From: Pseudomonas promysalinigenes
GTDB lineage: Bacteria > Pseudomonadota > Gammaproteobacteria > Pseudomonadales > Pseudomonadaceae
NCBI RefSeq assembly: GCF_014269025.2
Contig: NZ_CP077094.1
Coordinates: forward strand, 3,348,001-3,412,000
Reading direction: 5' to 3'
Length of the DNA stretch: 64,000 nt
Position numbers and translations under genes: made by a program. The notes under the pieces are model-generated. The model did no database searches, was not told the DNA's origin, and saw only the letters and a list, made by a program, of their open reading frames with translations. This document shows positions 37,927-46,680 of the stretch, piece by piece; position 1 is the first letter of the stretch; each line of letters opens with the position of its first letter.

Positions 37927-37963
37927 CTGTAAGATCGAGCGCCGGCGGCGCTCGATCTTACAG
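37927..37963. terminator. 17-bp perfect stem hairpin
   Basis: CTGTAAGATCGAGCGCC and its exact complement surround a GGC loop. It lies 29 bp after the lipoprotein stop and shares the GATCGAGCGCC core with the inverted repeat at 5-237. It may be a decayed member of that repeat family now serving as a transcript end. Confidence 0.65.
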
Positions 37964-38057: not shown

Positions 38058-38169
38058 AATGGAGGCGGCCCCACCAGCCACACCCCGGCACTCGATGTTC
38101 CCGCTATGGCTGCTCCCTTCCGGGCCTGACCAGGTTAACGGGTAATCAATGCGGGGGGACCGATGGGGC
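38058..38169 (-). repeat. Left boundary: second copy of ffs (attL side)
   Basis: These 112 bp are identical to 46568-46679. They contain the SRP RNA sequence on the minus strand, including CCCGGAAGGGAGCAGCC of the Ffh-binding hairpin. The base before the RNA 5' end is T here instead of G, which breaks only the first pair of the terminal stem. Upstream on that strand is island DNA with no obvious promoter, so this copy is probably silent. Confidence 0.9.
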
Positions 38170-38303: not shown

Positions 38304-39599
38304 ATGGCTTACATCGTCCGTCGCCAATCCGTTTACTACCTTAATCTACGACTACCGAAGCATCTATTCCATCAGCGTCAAACCTTACGCATATGCCTGC
38401 GTGTGCGAGAACGTCAGGCTGCATTGTTCCTTGCCAGCTCTCTAGCTCAGCAAGTGCATTACCACCTAACTGAACATCCTCTGACAGCCCCTGAGACGCT
38501 GCGTGCCCTGTGTAAGCAGTGGCGAGACTCTACCCCTCAGCCAATCACCATGGCTGCACCACGAAGACCTACAGCGGCCACAGCGAAGCCACAAAGCGAC
38601 GGTCCTACCCTCGCCACCCTGTCCAAACTCTATATAGAAGAAGGCAAACGCGGCGGCACATGGCGGCAAGGCAGTACCGATGACATCGAGCGTGCCCTAG
38701 CTGACCTGTTCGAGCTAATGGGTGATATGCCTGCGTTAGCCTTCGACGCTCATCAAGCTCGCCTGCTGAAAGAACGACTCAGCCGCTGCCCCCAGTACTT
38801 CGGTTTACGGCCAGAGTTCAAGGGCAAGACGCTGAAGCAAGTGATCGAGTCAGGTAACAACTACAAGACCATCAATGCAGTGACCGTTAACAATCGGCTA
38901 CGCAAGCTCACTGCCTTCCTGAACTGGTGCAAGGCCAACAGCTACATAGAGGAGAATCCGCTAGCCGGAATGAAAGTGATGACGGGATCGGGAAAAGAGG
39001 CACGACTGTCCTTTGACCGCCCTGATCTAGTCGCCCTGCTCGACCATGAAGCCTTAAAGAAAGAAGCCCGCAAGCATCCATGGCGTTATTGGCTACCCCT
39101 GCTTGGGCGAGCCACTGGGGCACGACTAGAAGAGCTATGCCAACTGCGTGTCGAGGACTTCATTGAGCAACAGGGAATCCAGTGCATCCGTATTGATGAC
39201 AGCCGTGAAGGCCAGAACCTGAAGAACGCCAGCAGCCGACGAGTACTTCCCCTGCACCCTGCCCTGCTAGACCTTGGCCTACTTATGTACGTTGAGTCTG
39301 TCAGGACCAAGGGGGCGGATCGCGCATTCCCTGAGCTGGAAGCAGTACGTGGGAAGCTGGGTCACGCACCGTCGAAGTGGTTCGGTCGGTTCAAGACGAA
39401 GCTGGGAATCACAGATCCCCGAAAGACCTTCCACAGCTTTCGCCATACGCTCATTGATGACCTGCGTGACGCTGGGGTGCAGGACTCACTGATCAAGCGT
39501 ATCGCTGGCCACGAGGATGGGGCCGTCACATTCAGCATCTACGGAAGTCGCAGCCCTACAAAAGCCATGCTGGAAGCTTTGGTGCAAGTAACTTTGTAG
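38304..39599 (+). CDS. Tyrosine-type site-specific integrase
   Basis: 431-aa phage-type integrase, expected to recombine the ffs attachment sites. The N-terminal region (MAYIVRRQSVYYLNLRLPK) matches integrases of the DUF6538-like group. The SAM-like core-binding domain is around 110-235. Catalytic residues: Arg in RATGARLEELCQL, HSFRHT (His-x-x-Arg), His in IAGHEDG and the nucleophile Tyr in FSIYGSRS. ATG at 38304 is preferred; the frame opens 47 codons earlier inside the ffs repeat, where initiation is improbable. No strong ribosome-binding site is visible, which suits low expression. Confidence 0.93.
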   Translation: MAYIVRRQSVYYLNLRLPKHLFHQRQTLRICLRVRERQAALFLASSLAQQVHYHLTEHPLTAPETLRALCKQWRDSTPQPITMAAPRRPTAATAKPQSDGPTLATLSKLYIEEGKRGGTWRQGSTDDIERALADLFELMGDMPALAFDAHQARLLKERLSRCPQYFGLRPEFKGKTLKQVIESGNNYKTINAVTVNNRLRKLTAFLNWCKANSYIEENPLAGMKVMTGSGKEARLSFDRPDLVALLDHEALKKEARKHPWRYWLPLLGRATGARLEELCQLRVEDFIEQQGIQCIRIDDSREGQNLKNASSRRVLPLHPALLDLGLLMYVESVRTKGADRAFPELEAVRGKLGHAPSKWFGRFKTKLGITDPRKTFHSFRHTLIDDLRDAGVQDSLIKRIAGHEDGAVTFSIYGSRSPTKAMLEALVQVTL

Positions 39600-39992: not shown

Positions 39993-40631
39993 TTGAAAAC
40001 CGCCATCTTCACCGCCCCACCCAACCACCTCAGTATTAATGGACTAATTATCGATAAATGCACTGGCGAGATCCTTGGACACGATGACACACCATCAGTA
40101 CTTACTGGCCCTGCCAAATACAAATGCGAACTTGGTAAGTGCCGAAGCACTGATGACTTTGAGGATCACCTAAGCTTCGTTGATCGACGTAAACTTCCAC
40201 CCCACGCACTGCACTCATTACGAAGTGAAGTGGACCATGCTCACGGAGAATGGCGTCGCACTGGCATGGACTGCCGCATCACCATTCCGCAACTGCGATT
40301 ATTAGAACAACTTCACGGACTTATCCTTTACCGAAACATTATCATCACGAGCCAGGCCAATCTAGCCCAATCGTTAGGAGTCGCCGAATCAAATTTAATG
40401 AAGAAGTTAAGGCTACTGACTGATAGCCACATGCTGCGGGTCTTTACATCACGAGACAGCAGTATGCGTAAGGGCGAGATAAAGCTAAGCGTGAATCCAC
40501 GACTGATTTTCAGGGGCGATGATTACGCCCGTGGCGAATACATTGAGAGATGGTACCAACCCACTGGATACTTGCATAAAGGAACGACTGAGCTTCCCGA
40601 GGCACCAGACTCCCTCACCATAGCTGCGTAG
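39993..40631 (+). CDS. RepL-like winged-helix protein, possible replication initiator
   Basis: 212 aa with a TTG start after GAGAATTATTAA. The central part (about 105-190) is a winged helix: IIITSQANLAQSLGVAESNL, MKKLRLLTDSHMLRVF, then a wing with KGEIKLSVNPRLIFRGDDYARGEY. That last block resembles the VNP...FKGD segment of RepL-type plasmid initiators. The N-terminal 70 residues, including INGLIIDKCTGEILGHDD, are not recognised. It directly precedes a hairpin-rich noncoding region, which fits an initiator next to its origin, but a transcription factor role is equally possible. Confidence 0.55.
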   Translation: MKTAIFTAPPNHLSINGLIIDKCTGEILGHDDTPSVLTGPAKYKCELGKCRSTDDFEDHLSFVDRRKLPPHALHSLRSEVDHAHGEWRRTGMDCRITIPQLRLLEQLHGLILYRNIIITSQANLAQSLGVAESNLMKKLRLLTDSHMLRVFTSRDSSMRKGEIKLSVNPRLIFRGDDYARGEYIERWYQPTGYLHKGTTELPEAPDSLTIAA

Positions 40632-41738: not shown

Positions 41739-42590
41739 TCAGCGTTCGCAAGTGTCAATGGCAAAATTTATGAACGCAGAACAGCAGATCAGCATGAAGC
41801 GAGCGTCAGCCTTAGTCGTAGTAGCGTCATCTTTCATCATCGCGTGCCGAATTCCGTCACCATCGCTCGCATAACCATAGAGTTTATTAAAAGCCTGCTT
41901 CACTATCGGTTCGAGCCGATGTTTGTCTTCCAATACCTTAAGGGCGTCGCCCAAAGTCGCTTTCGGATTGCCGGTGATATGTCTCGCCAACGACTCGACG
42001 GCACTGATGCTTTCCTTTATCGAGTTGCGATAATCTGGTGCATCTCGATTTGTAAGCATCCCGAGAGCCGTTTGAAGATGCTGCTTAACCCCAGCGTAAG
42101 GCTGGGCTGCACGCAGGGCACTGTCAATCTCTTCAAGCTCAACTTCCGACGTTATTGGTGCAATTTGCCGCTCGATGAACCTATACCCGGAATTCTGCTT
42201 TTCCAATACCAAATTTGCGAACTCGATGAAAGAATCGCGCCAGCGACGCGAGTGGTCTCTTTCTTCGGGTCCGTAGTCGGCCATGAATTCTAGGAAATCG
42301 TATATCTTATTCCAGGGCATGGCCATGAATCGTGCACGGATGTGACGATTTAGCTCGGACCAGTAGTCGGGAAGCTCATCAATGCTAATGTCGTGGTGGA
42401 AAGCATAGGCTTTTGAGAACGTGTCGAAGTTCGAATAGCGTAACAAATTAGTTTGGTATCCGTTTCTGTACTTCTCCCAAAATGAGAGAGTCAGGACGTT
42501 CCAGAGGGCCCCTCGAAGATTGTCGTCCACCCGTTCTATTTGAATGGCTTTGCTGGCCGGCTCTAAACCCATACGCTGCGAGAAACTCAT
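41739..42590 (-). CDS. AbiJ-type abortive infection protein (AbiJ_NTD4)
   Basis: 283 aa. The N-terminus MSFSQRMGLEPASKAIQIER followed by LRGALWN is the signature of the AbiJ N-terminal domain 4 family. The C-terminal half (about 190-283), with IKESISAVESLARHITG, DALKVLE, the DGIRHAMM motif and a final helix, looks like a HEPN-type helical domain found in many abortive-infection proteins. A HEPN role would imply RNA cleavage on phage infection; this is inference. The start at 42590 has GGGGGAT upstream; the frame extends 57 more codons without support. It stands alone, divergent from the recombinase gene. Confidence 0.8.
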   Translation of the reverse strand: MSFSQRMGLEPASKAIQIERVDDNLRGALWNVLTLSFWEKYRNGYQTNLLRYSNFDTFSKAYAFHHDISIDELPDYWSELNRHIRARFMAMPWNKIYDFLEFMADYGPEERDHSRRWRDSFIEFANLVLEKQNSGYRFIERQIAPITSEVELEEIDSALRAAQPYAGVKQHLQTALGMLTNRDAPDYRNSIKESISAVESLARHITGNPKATLGDALKVLEDKHRLEPIVKQAFNKLYGYASDGDGIRHAMMKDDATTTKADARFMLICCSAFINFAIDTCER

Positions 42591-42726: not shown

Positions 42727-42794
42727 ATAGGCTTGCAAGCAGTTAATGATACCTTTACCATGATCCCACCTTAAATGATCCCTTGGTGACGCCG

Positions 42795-43367
42795 ATGTCC
42801 CGTACCTTCCTATATTGCCGCGTTAGTACGTCGTATCAGTTCACCGAGAACCAGGTACAGGATGTTAAGAATGCCGGCTTCGATGTGCAGGCCAATCGGG
42901 TGATTGAAGAGACGATTTCCGGTAGCGTCCCTGCAAGCGAGCGTCCCGGTTTCCAGAAGTTGCTGGAACGGATGGAATCAGGTGATGTGCTGATCGTCAC
43001 AAAGTTGGACCGCCTTGGACGCAACGCTATGGATGTACGGCAGACAGTCGAGCAACTGGCAGCAACCGGCATCCGCGTTCACTGCCTCGCCCTTGGTGGC
43101 GTAGACCTGACCAGTGCAGCGGGCAAGATGACCATGCAGGTGCTTGGTGCTGTCGCAGAGTTCGAGCGGGATTTGCTGATCGAGCGTACACAGTCCGGTC
43201 TGAAGCGTGCCAAGGCCGAAGGTAAGAAACTGGGGCGCCCTGAAGCGGTTGATACGACCAAGGCGGTGCAGAAGGCCAAGGCCAAGAACATGACACAGGC
43301 GGAAGTGGCAGCCGAACTCAACATCGGTATCGCCACGGTCAAACGGCACTGGAACAAGGCGCTGTAA
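42795..43367 (+). CDS. Serine recombinase, resolvase/invertase (Pin) family
   Basis: 190 aa. The catalytic N-terminal domain has YCRVSTSYQ with the nucleophile Ser, [32 protein letters not shown] and [22 protein letters not shown]. The C-terminal helix-turn-helix is [20 protein letters not shown]. Length is that of a Tn3-type resolvase or DNA invertase. ATG at 42795 is chosen; no good ribosome-binding site is seen for it or for the TTG at 42783. The partner site may be the dyad 69-86 bp upstream. Confidence 0.93.
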
Positions 43368-43409: not shown

Positions 43410-43616
43410 ATGGATGATAAGGCCGCTGCTACAGCCGACGCCCTAGAGCTGCCGCATATAAACCAGACCGCCCTGAGGGCAGCCATCGAGGAAGTAAGTA
43501 CATGGATCAGGCAGCGTGGGTCTGTAATTGCCCACGAAAACACGATGACATGCCTACAGGCACTTGATGCCAACGCAGACGCTATCGCTTCAGCGATAGA
43601 TCGCCTACGCTCATAG
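43410..43616 (+). CDS. Small hypothetical protein after the recombinase
   Basis: 68 aa, acidic N-terminus and mostly helical (INQTALRAAIEEVSTWIRQRG, MTCLQALDANADAIASAIDRL). It starts 42 bp after the recombinase stop and ends in a good intrinsic terminator, which supports its being a real gene transcribed with the recombinase. The coding sequence contains a 7-bp hairpin (43582-43599) near its end. I do not recognise the family. Confidence 0.6.
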   Translation: MDDKAAATADALELPHINQTALRAAIEEVSTWIRQRGSVIAHENTMTCLQALDANADAIASAIDRLRS

Positions 43617-43724: not shown

Positions 43725-44111
43725 TCACGCTAAACAGCTTCTTGTCAGCCCCTGAAACCGCTTCAGGTATCCCCCAGCGTCTCGGGCAGGGATAGCGTGT
43801 CGCTCCTTAACCACGGAGCCCGGAGCACCATCGCTTTTCGGGATCACATCGAGGAAGTACATCGGAATCCCCGTATCCGCAGTTACAGTGGTCGTATCGC
43901 CTCGACGATAGCTCTTCGCACCGTCAAACCGGATCAATTCAAACCCGCGAGCGTTCTCATTGAATGCTCCAACTACACACGCAGAAAAGTCTTCTGGCGA
44001 GCGCTCGGTCGTTAACGTGGCTGCCGGGACAGTTTCTCTCAGCTGCTCAATTGATTTCGCACCACAAGAAATGAGAAGCAAGGTGCTTAATATCACTAAC
44101 GCGTTCCGCAT
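43725..44111 (-). CDS. Small lipoprotein at the end of the island defence operon
   Basis: 128 aa with signal ALVILSTLLLISC (cysteine at residue 16). The mature part has no family I recognise; it includes FSACVVGAFNENA, two further cysteines and a TRSCLA end. The start lies only 8 bp after the DUF4062 stop, so the two are probably co-transcribed. A membrane lipoprotein behind two cytoplasmic defence-like proteins is unusual. Its role is unknown. Confidence 0.7.
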   Translation of the reverse strand: MRNALVILSTLLLISCGAKSIEQLRETVPAATLTTERSPEDFSACVVGAFNENARGFELIRFDGAKSYRRGDTTTVTADTGIPMYFLDVIPKSDGAPGSVVKERHAIPARDAGGYLKRFQGLTRSCLA

Positions 44112-44119
44112 AAGAAGAA

Positions 44120-45148
44120 CTAAGCCTCCTCTGTAATAGAGTCAGCTGCCTTAATGCCTTCCTCAAGCAAAACGCGTCGAAACTCCTTCAGCACCTGCTT
44201 GCCGAGCTTGGTCAAAGACCAGTATCTGGCGCTATCACTTACTGGATGTTTCTTCTTTGATGGCTCCACCAAATCCAATGCTGCAAAGTCAGCAAGTATA
44301 TCAGTTACGATATTCACACCTATAGGGTGGTTCTGCACATACTTCGTCCCCACCAAATGAAGAGCTATATTCTTGCCGACCTCGGCGCTCGAATTTTCTA
44401 CGAGTAGATTTTTGGCAACCCAGTGAAATACGTCTGCAAGAGTAACGGTTACTGGCTCAACATCTTCCCAACGTGGTTTATCCTGAGTTCTTGCTGCCAG
44501 CTTCCTTTTGTTGGCATTTAGCACCTTAATAGCCGAACGCACCTCATCATGCTGCGTCTCCTCTTTCTTTCTAACTGCATCCAACTGCTCTCTTAAACTT
44601 GCGTTCTCACTACTAAGACGAGTCAGCTCTTTAGTAACTTCAGCACCGGTCACCTGATCCGCCCGAGTCCATCCAGTGCGGGGGTTTGCGGTAATTGCCT
44701 TCATTAAAGCTATTGATAGCTTTCCGTGAAGGTCATCCTTATTCGACCAAAAATTTACCAGCCTTGACTTGACCTTTGATTTAAACCTAGTTAAGCGCTG
44801 AAGCGCCTTAGCTTCTGTCTCGCATAGGTCTCGAGGCCAGGGAGCAGAGTCATCTATAACGAATCCTAAGATAGGAACTCCCTTCTCAACCGCATAGTCA
44901 TATTCTTTCTCTGTGTAACCAACACCTTCCGCAGTAACGGAACCATATCGATGAGCAACGATTAGAACGTAATAATCTATTTCATCTATCTGACGAGCAA
45001 TAATTTTCCATTGCTCCTCATCAGCAGCACTAAACATCTCCATCCCAACCGGGATATGACCCATCTCCAAAATAGCCTTGATAGCTTGCTCCCGCTCCCC
45101 TACAAGATCTTGGTAAGTGGAACTAACAAAAACCTGATACTTCTTCAT
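44120..45148 (-). CDS. DUF4062 domain protein with coiled coil and C-terminal winged-helix-like region
   Basis: 342 aa. MKKYQVFVSSTYQDLVGERE starts the DUF4062 domain (about 1-95), a TIR-like Rossmann fold with IDYYVLIVAHRYGS and GVGYTEKEYDYAVEKGVPIL. A coiled coil (about 175-215, LTRLSSENASLREQLDAVRK) and a helical C-terminal part with WSLTKLGKQVLKEF, typical of the end of a winged helix, follow. DUF4062 often occurs in signalling or defence proteins; the exact activity is not known to me. It is the second gene of a probable operon, 71 bp after the nuclease gene. Codon use is more AT-rich than the neighbours. The start follows a run of eight G. Confidence 0.8.
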   Translation of the reverse strand: MKKYQVFVSSTYQDLVGEREQAIKAILEMGHIPVGMEMFSAADEEQWKIIARQIDEIDYYVLIVAHRYGSVTAEGVGYTEKEYDYAVEKGVPILGFVIDDSAPWPRDLCETEAKALQRLTRFKSKVKSRLVNFWSNKDDLHGKLSIALMKAITANPRTGWTRADQVTGAEVTKELTRLSSENASLREQLDAVRKKEETQHDEVRSAIKVLNANKRKLAARTQDKPRWEDVEPVTVTLADVFHWVAKNLLVENSSAEVGKNIALHLVGTKYVQNHPIGVNIVTDILADFAALDLVEPSKKKHPVSDSARYWSLTKLGKQVLKEFRRVLLEEGIKAADSITEEA

Positions 45149-45219
45149 GCACCCCCCCCAACGAAACATAACGCGAAAACACAACTAAAAGGACATCAAA
45201 CCTGCAACATCAACAAGCA

Positions 45220-46305
45220 CTACTCATATAGCGAAATAGTCCCTTTTAACTGATCTGCAAAACCGTAAATATCGTCCACAGATGTGATCGGATGGCGCGT
45301 TTCGCTCTTCTCAGCGTCGAATATACCTATGTACTTCTGGCTGCGATTGAAGTGCAACCGGCAAATCGGTTTACGATTATTATCGTCCAGCAGAATTCCG
45401 AAGTAACTTTGGGTATCACGATGAACGATCCGCTTTGCATCCACAACCGCCCGCACAATTGCCTTGACTATGTGGAAACCTTCAAGCTCTTCAAGAGTAG
45501 TCTGGATACGGTCGTCGTCGCCGGCTTCCTCAGAAGACTCAGGCGCCGTTGATGCTTGAACGGCCATCATTGCATAAGACGGCTCGACTGCACCGCTCAT
45601 AGCTGATTTCAACCTGTCGTTGATCTGATCTCCTAGAAACTGGATTGCCGCTTTCCTAGTCAAGGTGGTGAACTGCTCTCTCACCTTCTGCGTAATGATC
45701 CCGTCGTAGACCCGAGTAGCGAAGAACTTCACAAACTCGTCACTAGGCTGACTGAACTGCGAAGCCATCTCTTTCTTGATCTGACCAACGTACTTCAGTT
45801 CTCCAGCAGCACTGATGATGGAGTCAACATCGAACGCGGACTTGGTTAGCTTCTGAAGCTCCGGAAGGGCGTGCTCGTCCAGATCGAGAAGGTCCAGCTC
45901 CAAGAATGGTTTCTCATCCATCTTATTAGGGGCATCGAGGTCGGTGAAGAATCGGTAGACCTGGCCATTGGTAAGGATGGAGATACGGGCGGTGGTGACG
46001 TGGAAATACCGGAAGAGCTGGCTCGCGTGATTGATATGCAGCGGCTCGCCGATTTTCTTGCACTCGATCAGGATCTGAATCTCGCCGTTCTTCATGATGG
46101 CGTAGTCGATCTTCTCGCCCTTCTTCGTCCCCACGTCGCAGACGTACTCTGGCGTAACCTCTGAGGGATCGAAAACGTCGTAGCCTAGGACGGAGTTGAT
46201 GAAGGGCATGACAAAGGCAATCTTGGTCGCCTCTTCTGTCTGGATAGCAGGGCCCTGCTGGCGGATCTTGGCTGATAATGCGTTCAGTCGCTCTACGAAT
46301 TCCAT
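45220..46305 (-). CDS. PD-(D/E)XK nuclease, type I restriction HsdR N-terminal-like
   Basis: 361 aa. The N-terminal domain (about 1-135) matches the HSDR_N fold. KIDYAIMKNGEIQILIECKK supplies the Asp, Glu-x-Lys catalytic residues near 82-100, after TEEATKIAFVMPFINSVLGYDVFDPSEV. The rest has helical regions and a C-terminal domain with PICRLHFNRSQKYIGIFD. No helicase or methylase is nearby, so it is not a normal type I system. The start ATG at 46305 has a GAGGAG-like site; the longer upstream frame is unsupported. It leads the operon with DUF4062 and the lipoprotein. Confidence 0.82.
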   Translation of the reverse strand: MEFVERLNALSAKIRQQGPAIQTEEATKIAFVMPFINSVLGYDVFDPSEVTPEYVCDVGTKKGEKIDYAIMKNGEIQILIECKKIGEPLHINHASQLFRYFHVTTARISILTNGQVYRFFTDLDAPNKMDEKPFLELDLLDLDEHALPELQKLTKSAFDVDSIISAAGELKYVGQIKKEMASQFSQPSDEFVKFFATRVYDGIITQKVREQFTTLTRKAAIQFLGDQINDRLKSAMSGAVEPSYAMMAVQASTAPESSEEAGDDDRIQTTLEELEGFHIVKAIVRAVVDAKRIVHRDTQSYFGILLDDNNRKPICRLHFNRSQKYIGIFDAEKSETRHPITSVDDIYGFADQLKGTISLYE

Positions 46306-46510
46306 GTCTCGCTCCTCGCTCAGATGCCACATCCTAGTAGCAGTGCTGCCGTACTGGCAATTACAAATCACAGCGAGTGAAGGGGGATAAGCGCCACATG
46401 AGCGGATGACAGGGCGGCGCCGAGATTGGCGTAACCAGAGAGGGGATTGGAGAGGCGAGATGACGAAGCTAGAATACTCAGCACGGTGCACCGCATAGGT
46501 GTACTACGGC

Positions 46511-46521: not shown

Positions 46522-46573
46522 TCGAGAATTTGAGAGGGAAAATTCCTTTAGAATTAAGGACTTGCGTAATGGA

Positions 46574-46680
46574 GGCGGCCCCACCAGCCACACCCCGGCA
46601 CTCGATGTTCCCGCTATGGCTGCTCCCTTCCGGGCCTGACCAGGTTAACGGGTAATCAATGCGGGGGGACCGATGGGGCC
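46574..46680 (-). ncRNA. ffs: SRP RNA (4.5S RNA), promoter-linked copy
   Basis: Small bacterial signal recognition particle RNA of about 107 nt. Its 5' GGCCCCAUCGGU pairs with GCUGGUGGGGCC near the 3' end, and the apical hairpin contains the conserved CAGGCCCGGAAGGGAGCAGCC core in two adjoining parts. It binds Ffh and guides membrane-protein translation. This copy keeps the chromosomal promoter and the complete 5' stem, so it is expected to be the working gene after island insertion. Exact ends are estimated from base pairing. Confidence 0.93.

Follow-up and report, generated by a model that had tools for sequence, protein, structure and literature searches.

Do three closely spaced genes that look like parts of a defence operon belong to one system? 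This question is raised by positions 43725 to 46305 of the window, our term for the whole 64,000-nt stretch of Pseudomonas promysalinigenes DNA that was analysed (NZ_CP077094.1, positions 3,348,001 to 3,412,000), in a genome that is a single 5.05-Mb contig. Three minus-strand genes there encode a stand-alone HsdR-N-like PD-(D/E)XK nuclease, a DUF4062 protein and a small lipoprotein, and a sequence-only reading had joined them into one system of sensor, nuclease effector and membrane component. The observation behind that proposal is sound: the open reading frames (ORFs) and the sequence confirm the gaps of 71 bp (nuclease/DUF4062) and 8 bp (DUF4062/lipoprotein), and the mobile island around the genes is confirmed by 112-nt repeats holding the ffs RNA gene, a tyrosine integrase and a drop in GC from ~62% to ~50%. 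The interpretation, however, was over-read. Most probably the genes are independently acquired cargo, co-directional by chance in an island at ffs, and not one three-gene system; the set is best read as a local arrangement in an ffs island whose cargo is a patchwork that includes defence genes. The third-position GC of the three genes is unequal (0.64, 0.44 and 0.55).

A conserved three-gene operon was rejected because, in the loci examined, homologues of the genes are rarely neighbours, and the nuclease and DUF4062 co-occur at the level of chance. Among 298 genomes of the genus, the nuclease is present in 71 and DUF4062 in 23 (12 of these below 1e-30); both are found in 7, where 5.5 would be expected (one-sided Fisher p 0.29), and the 12 stronger DUF4062 genomes include 4 with the nuclease, against 2.9 expected (p 0.31). 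The two genes adjoin only in the window's own genome, while they lie ~450 kb apart in genome G107, more than 500 kb apart in G049, G051 and G243, and on separate contigs in G121 and G082. The wider loci gave the same result. In the best 80 of 348 DUF4062 loci from named genomes, we found neither a nuclease nor a lipoprotein gene, and a repeat of the nuclease search with a more diverse profile again returned none. Likewise, 72 viral DUF4062 loci contained no nuclease and no lipoprotein, and 80 viral nuclease loci contained no DUF4062 gene; ORF calling recovered the anchor gene in 70 and 79 of these loci, respectively.

In close relatives the nuclease stands at ffs without the other two genes, and we therefore regard it as linked to ffs and able to do without them. 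Both G216 and G264 have ligA, a single ffs and the nuclease (96% and 93%) in this order, followed by other chromosomal genes, and they resemble the window (91% and 80%) across ffs and the nuclease, as far as the nuclease stop codon. G216 also retains a 77% remnant of the DNA around the integrase start. The nuclease adjoins a single ffs in G020, is next to a serine resolvase, without DUF4062, in a different ffs island of G145 (nuclease 89%; resolvase Pfam 1.2e-39), and in G183 lies outside a different island that is inserted in ffs. A new three-gene system, with DUF4062 as the phage sensor, the nuclease as the effector and the lipoprotein at the membrane, would account for the tight spacing, the shared strand and the presence of defence-type families in one island. 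Given that the genes are neighbours in the window's genome alone and in no other locus examined, that the nuclease occurs by itself beside ffs in G216, G264 and G020, and that the DUF4062 protein itself carries both a sensor and an effector domain, we consider such a system very improbable.

The DUF4062 protein (PF13271, 7.9e-29), judged by its sequence, is a new relative of the Swarozyc system described in 2026. It is matched at 3e-63 by KpSwz, the portal-activated NADase of that system (preprint May 2026; PDB 10wc, 11cq, 11cv; PMC13174449), with the profile match reaching chain residue 303 of 326. Residues 2-158 are predicted to adopt a TIR/NDT fold, in line with the TIR-like domain proposed earlier, and are followed by a predicted helical stalk (169-212), which supports the proposed coiled coil, and by a C-terminal winged domain with PadR-type winged-helix matches. 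E82, conserved in 20/20 sequences, is the equivalent of KpSwz E97 when aligned to the E97A chain (offset 13). Swarozyc combines sensor and effector in one protein (PMC13174449), and the DUF4062 protein therefore need not use the nuclease as its effector. By analogy with KpSwz, the protein is very probably an NADase and would probably mediate phage-triggered abortive infection; that the portal is its trigger is possible, at somewhat less than even chances. PADLOC gave a weak match (PDC-S60, 8.5e-5). In a second draw of 398 genomes, DUF4062 was found in 7 at ≤1e-60, all of them genomes already met, and the genome loci showed no recurrent partner near the gene, the largest neighbour cluster comprising 3 of 79. 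In ~15 of 70 viral loci the DUF4062 gene lies among phage tail genes (e.g., L282:7376-8053 and L274:4188-5096), and of its neighbours, the two that were tested proved to be a baseplate V and a baseplate J protein. The island also carries an AbiJ_NTD4 gene (PDC-S32). A DUF4062 gene, an AbiJ_NTD4 gene and the small ORF of Table 1 occur together in G024 (L074:8605-10959), and an AbiJ relative is found near DUF4062 in L122; a pairing of the two families is possible, but these cases are too few for us to claim it.

The third gene encodes a lipoprotein, as had been proposed, with a lipobox (LISC) whose Cys, C16, is found in 8/8 sequences. It has no Pfam family, and with the window's own counted, its homologues fall into eight protein clusters. 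The gene is rare: it was found in 2 of the 398 genomes at 1e-10, with 8 more weak matches (1e-6 to 1e-3) among the 298 genomes, and none was found in plasmids, phages or viral contigs. In G250 a distance of 272 bp separates the lipoprotein gene (61%) from a copy (86%) of the serine resolvase of the window, and the nuclease is on another contig. Since only 8 bp separate the window's lipoprotein and DUF4062 genes, they are probably co-transcribed, which raises the alternative of a recently paired two-gene unit of a DUF4062 NADase and a lipoprotein that acts at the envelope to modulate entry or signalling. We hold this improbable, in that the 80 genome and 72 viral DUF4062 loci are devoid of the lipoprotein, the 20 kb fetched from G107, which has the closest readable DUF4062 homologue (78%), gave no match to the lipoprotein, and the G250 lipoprotein is linked to the resolvase, though a different DUF4062 protein is also near. 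That protein (L165:13539-15989) has 816 aa and HEAT repeats (4.3e-7), and represents another DUF4062 architecture. As a guess, the lipoprotein might block superinfection at the envelope.

Several points weigh against our reading of the genes as independent cargo. The 8-bp gap and the shared strand suggest that DUF4062 and the lipoprotein are transcribed together, the second DUF4062 protein and the lipoprotein of G250 are ~3.3 kb apart, with an integrase between them, and in L179 the nuclease has a marginal match to the lipoprotein profile (E 0.00099) as its neighbour. The neighbourhoods read cover one of the seven other lipoprotein clusters and, for DUF4062, start with the 78% homologue of G107, the closest homologue of all being P0001 (90%). 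Many loci are on short contigs, and the absence of partner genes therefore applies only to the DNA stretches examined.

The nuclease matches HSDR_N (PF04313, 1.3e-12) and HSDR_N_2 (9.4e-8), its predicted fold is that of the cutting domains of restriction enzymes (VIA-align), and residues E24, E25, D67, E81, K83, Q96 and Y100 are invariant. It is stand-alone as first described, as Pfam found no helicase, methylase or specificity subunit among the eight main island ORFs. The phage family phrog_4225, annotated 'endonuclease', matches it over its full length (7.4e-134), and relatives occur in 18 phage and 46 plasmid records. We take this family to be COG4748; our literature search, in which COG4748 was met as table entries, found no biochemistry for it. 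A sequence search of the PDB gave no match, and PADLOC a weak one (IIG, 9.2e-6). We are fairly confident that the protein cleaves DNA, and the chances that it serves in defence are about even.

Immunity genes expressed in the lysogen are commonly found behind a CI repressor. An HTH_3 (CI-type) gene lies directly upstream of the nuclease in 19 of 55 viral loci and a Peptidase_S24 gene in 15 of 55. After dereplication to 56 loci, 37 of which have a same-strand upstream ORF, the link is weakened: HTH_3 remains in 7/37 versus 0/37 control ORFs (p 0.006) and Peptidase_S24 in 5/37 versus 1/37, the control being one random ORF >1.5 kb away in each locus. Six annotated phage regions were read; in IPP25, FNU_1P, TPELB_ph1 and Juicebox the nuclease has a repressor or regulator on one side and the integrase on the other, an arrangement that a Porphyromonas phage does not share. 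The unannotated phage P7.1 has a similar layout by eye. A general tie to the integrase, suggested by the annotated phages, was dropped because a tyrosine integrase lies within 3 kb in 11/79 viral nuclease loci versus 7/70 viral DUF4062 loci, counted with a home-made and probably insensitive profile.

The nuclease may instead be a housekeeping or mobile-element DNA-processing enzyme and not a defence gene. Its frequency in the genus, the flanking genes that several relatives share (L065, L066 and L067; L166), as around a settled gene, and the few viral loci with a nearby integrase are consistent with this alternative, whereas its patchy presence, the predicted restriction-type fold and the excess of CI-type genes directly upstream in dereplicated viral loci speak for defence; we judge a non-defence role a real possibility, at roughly one chance in three. 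A more specific idea, which we put forward tentatively and regard as rather unlikely, is that the nuclease constitutes a single-protein immunity system not described so far, with a cutting domain and its own C-terminal reader domain, carried at ffs and in prophages, where it lies partly right behind the CI repressor and would be made in the lysogen. In this island it would form a first, DNA-cutting layer before a Swarozyc-type suicide layer that fires only after virion assembly has started.

Under our favoured explanation of independent cargo, the winged C-terminal domain of the DUF4062 protein would sense a phage component, which is the portal in the only case characterised, the stalk would then rearrange, and the TIR-like domain would use E82 to hydrolyse NAD+, halting the infected cell before phage release. 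The nuclease, with its active site intact, would most likely cleave foreign DNA alone, and the lipoprotein would be a rare accessory gene.

The island itself is ~8.5 kb long and is bounded by perfect direct repeats, each containing a complete gene for the bacterial small signal recognition particle RNA (4.5S RNA, ffs), with the integrase at one end (Table 1). It belongs to a family defined by an integrase beside ffs and a second ffs at the other end. Relatives of the integrase (1e-40) are found in 24 of the 298 genomes, own genome included, and the 18 related regions that we fetched (L329-L346) all have a partial ffs by the integrase, 13 of them with a second ffs copy within the stretch. Among the matches listed by PADLOC (1e-10) for 100 ORFs of at least 110 aa from these 13 islands are Hachiman HamA and HamB, a CBASS cyclase and a 2TM effector, reverse-transcriptase systems, Dsr1 and PDC-M36, and 13 of the 100 ORFs are serine resolvases. 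In the 18 stretches, tblastn found no DUF4062 and the nuclease once, outside the island (L344). Small islands with a tyrosine integrase, serine resolvases and a varied defence cargo form a family for which ffs is an integration hotspot; our literature search found nothing on ffs as a defence hotspot. The integrase-side ffs of the window is complete and identical to the other copy, while it is partial in 18/18 fetched relatives; the island possibly brings along its own spare copy of the 4.5S RNA gene. Sigma-70-like promoter matches in the region are at chance level (3 found, 2.7 expected). Just outside the island, a perfect inverted repeat of 18 nt around a loop of 1 nt (37927-37963) is perhaps a terminator or a repeat element.

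Table 1. Features of the ffs island, in window positions.
Feature	Position	Strand	Remarks
Integrase-side attachment repeat with complete ffs (38069-38165)	38058..38169	-	Repeat and RNA gene match
Tyrosine integrase	38304..39599	+	Probable start 38304; ORF from 38163
Weakly RepL-like protein	39993..40631	+	Recurs in two related islands
AbiJ_NTD4 protein	41739..42590	-	PADLOC PDC-S32, 3.8e-106; probable start 42590, ORF from 42761
Serine resolvase	42783..43367	+	
Small ORF, phage family phrog_12397	43410..43616	+	
Rare lipoprotein, 128 aa	43725..44111	-	ATG 44111; lipobox Cys C16
DUF4062 protein, 342 aa	44120..45148	-	ATG 45148
Stand-alone HsdR-N-like PD-(D/E)XK nuclease, 361 aa	45220..46305	-	ATG 46305
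Sigma-70-like promoter match 5' of nuclease	46331..46360	-	9/12
ligA-side attachment repeat with complete ffs (46579-46675)	46568..46679	-	Repeat and RNA gene match

These results spare defence catalogues a false three-gene operon and add a small island of this genus to the range of the recently described Swarozyc NADases. They also provide two leads, namely a very common, uncharacterised stand-alone HsdR-like nuclease and a hotspot, the 4.5S RNA gene, at which modular islands with Hachiman, CBASS, reverse-transcriptase and other systems integrate.

In comparison with known systems, the nuclease differs from type I HsdR and from type IIG/IIL enzymes (EcoR124I, DrdV and BpuSI) in that it lacks their helicase, methylase and specificity domains and has, in 361 aa, its own C-terminal domain. 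A type I restriction-modification system would comprise an HsdR motor, HsdM and HsdS, and the nuclease has HSDR_N matches only. Type IV restriction enzymes cut modified DNA and have no cognate methylase; among the main island ORFs no methylase was found. The DUF4062 protein has in common with KpSwz a TIR-like domain, a catalytic Glu, a helical stalk and a winged auxiliary domain, and each is a single gene inside a defence-carrying island. The two belong to different clades. A counterpart of the portal-binding hairpin of KpSwz, W238/Y239 (PMC13174449), is at most putative in the DUF4062 protein, in which a Trp that is invariant in 20/20 sequences (W227) lies a few residues away.
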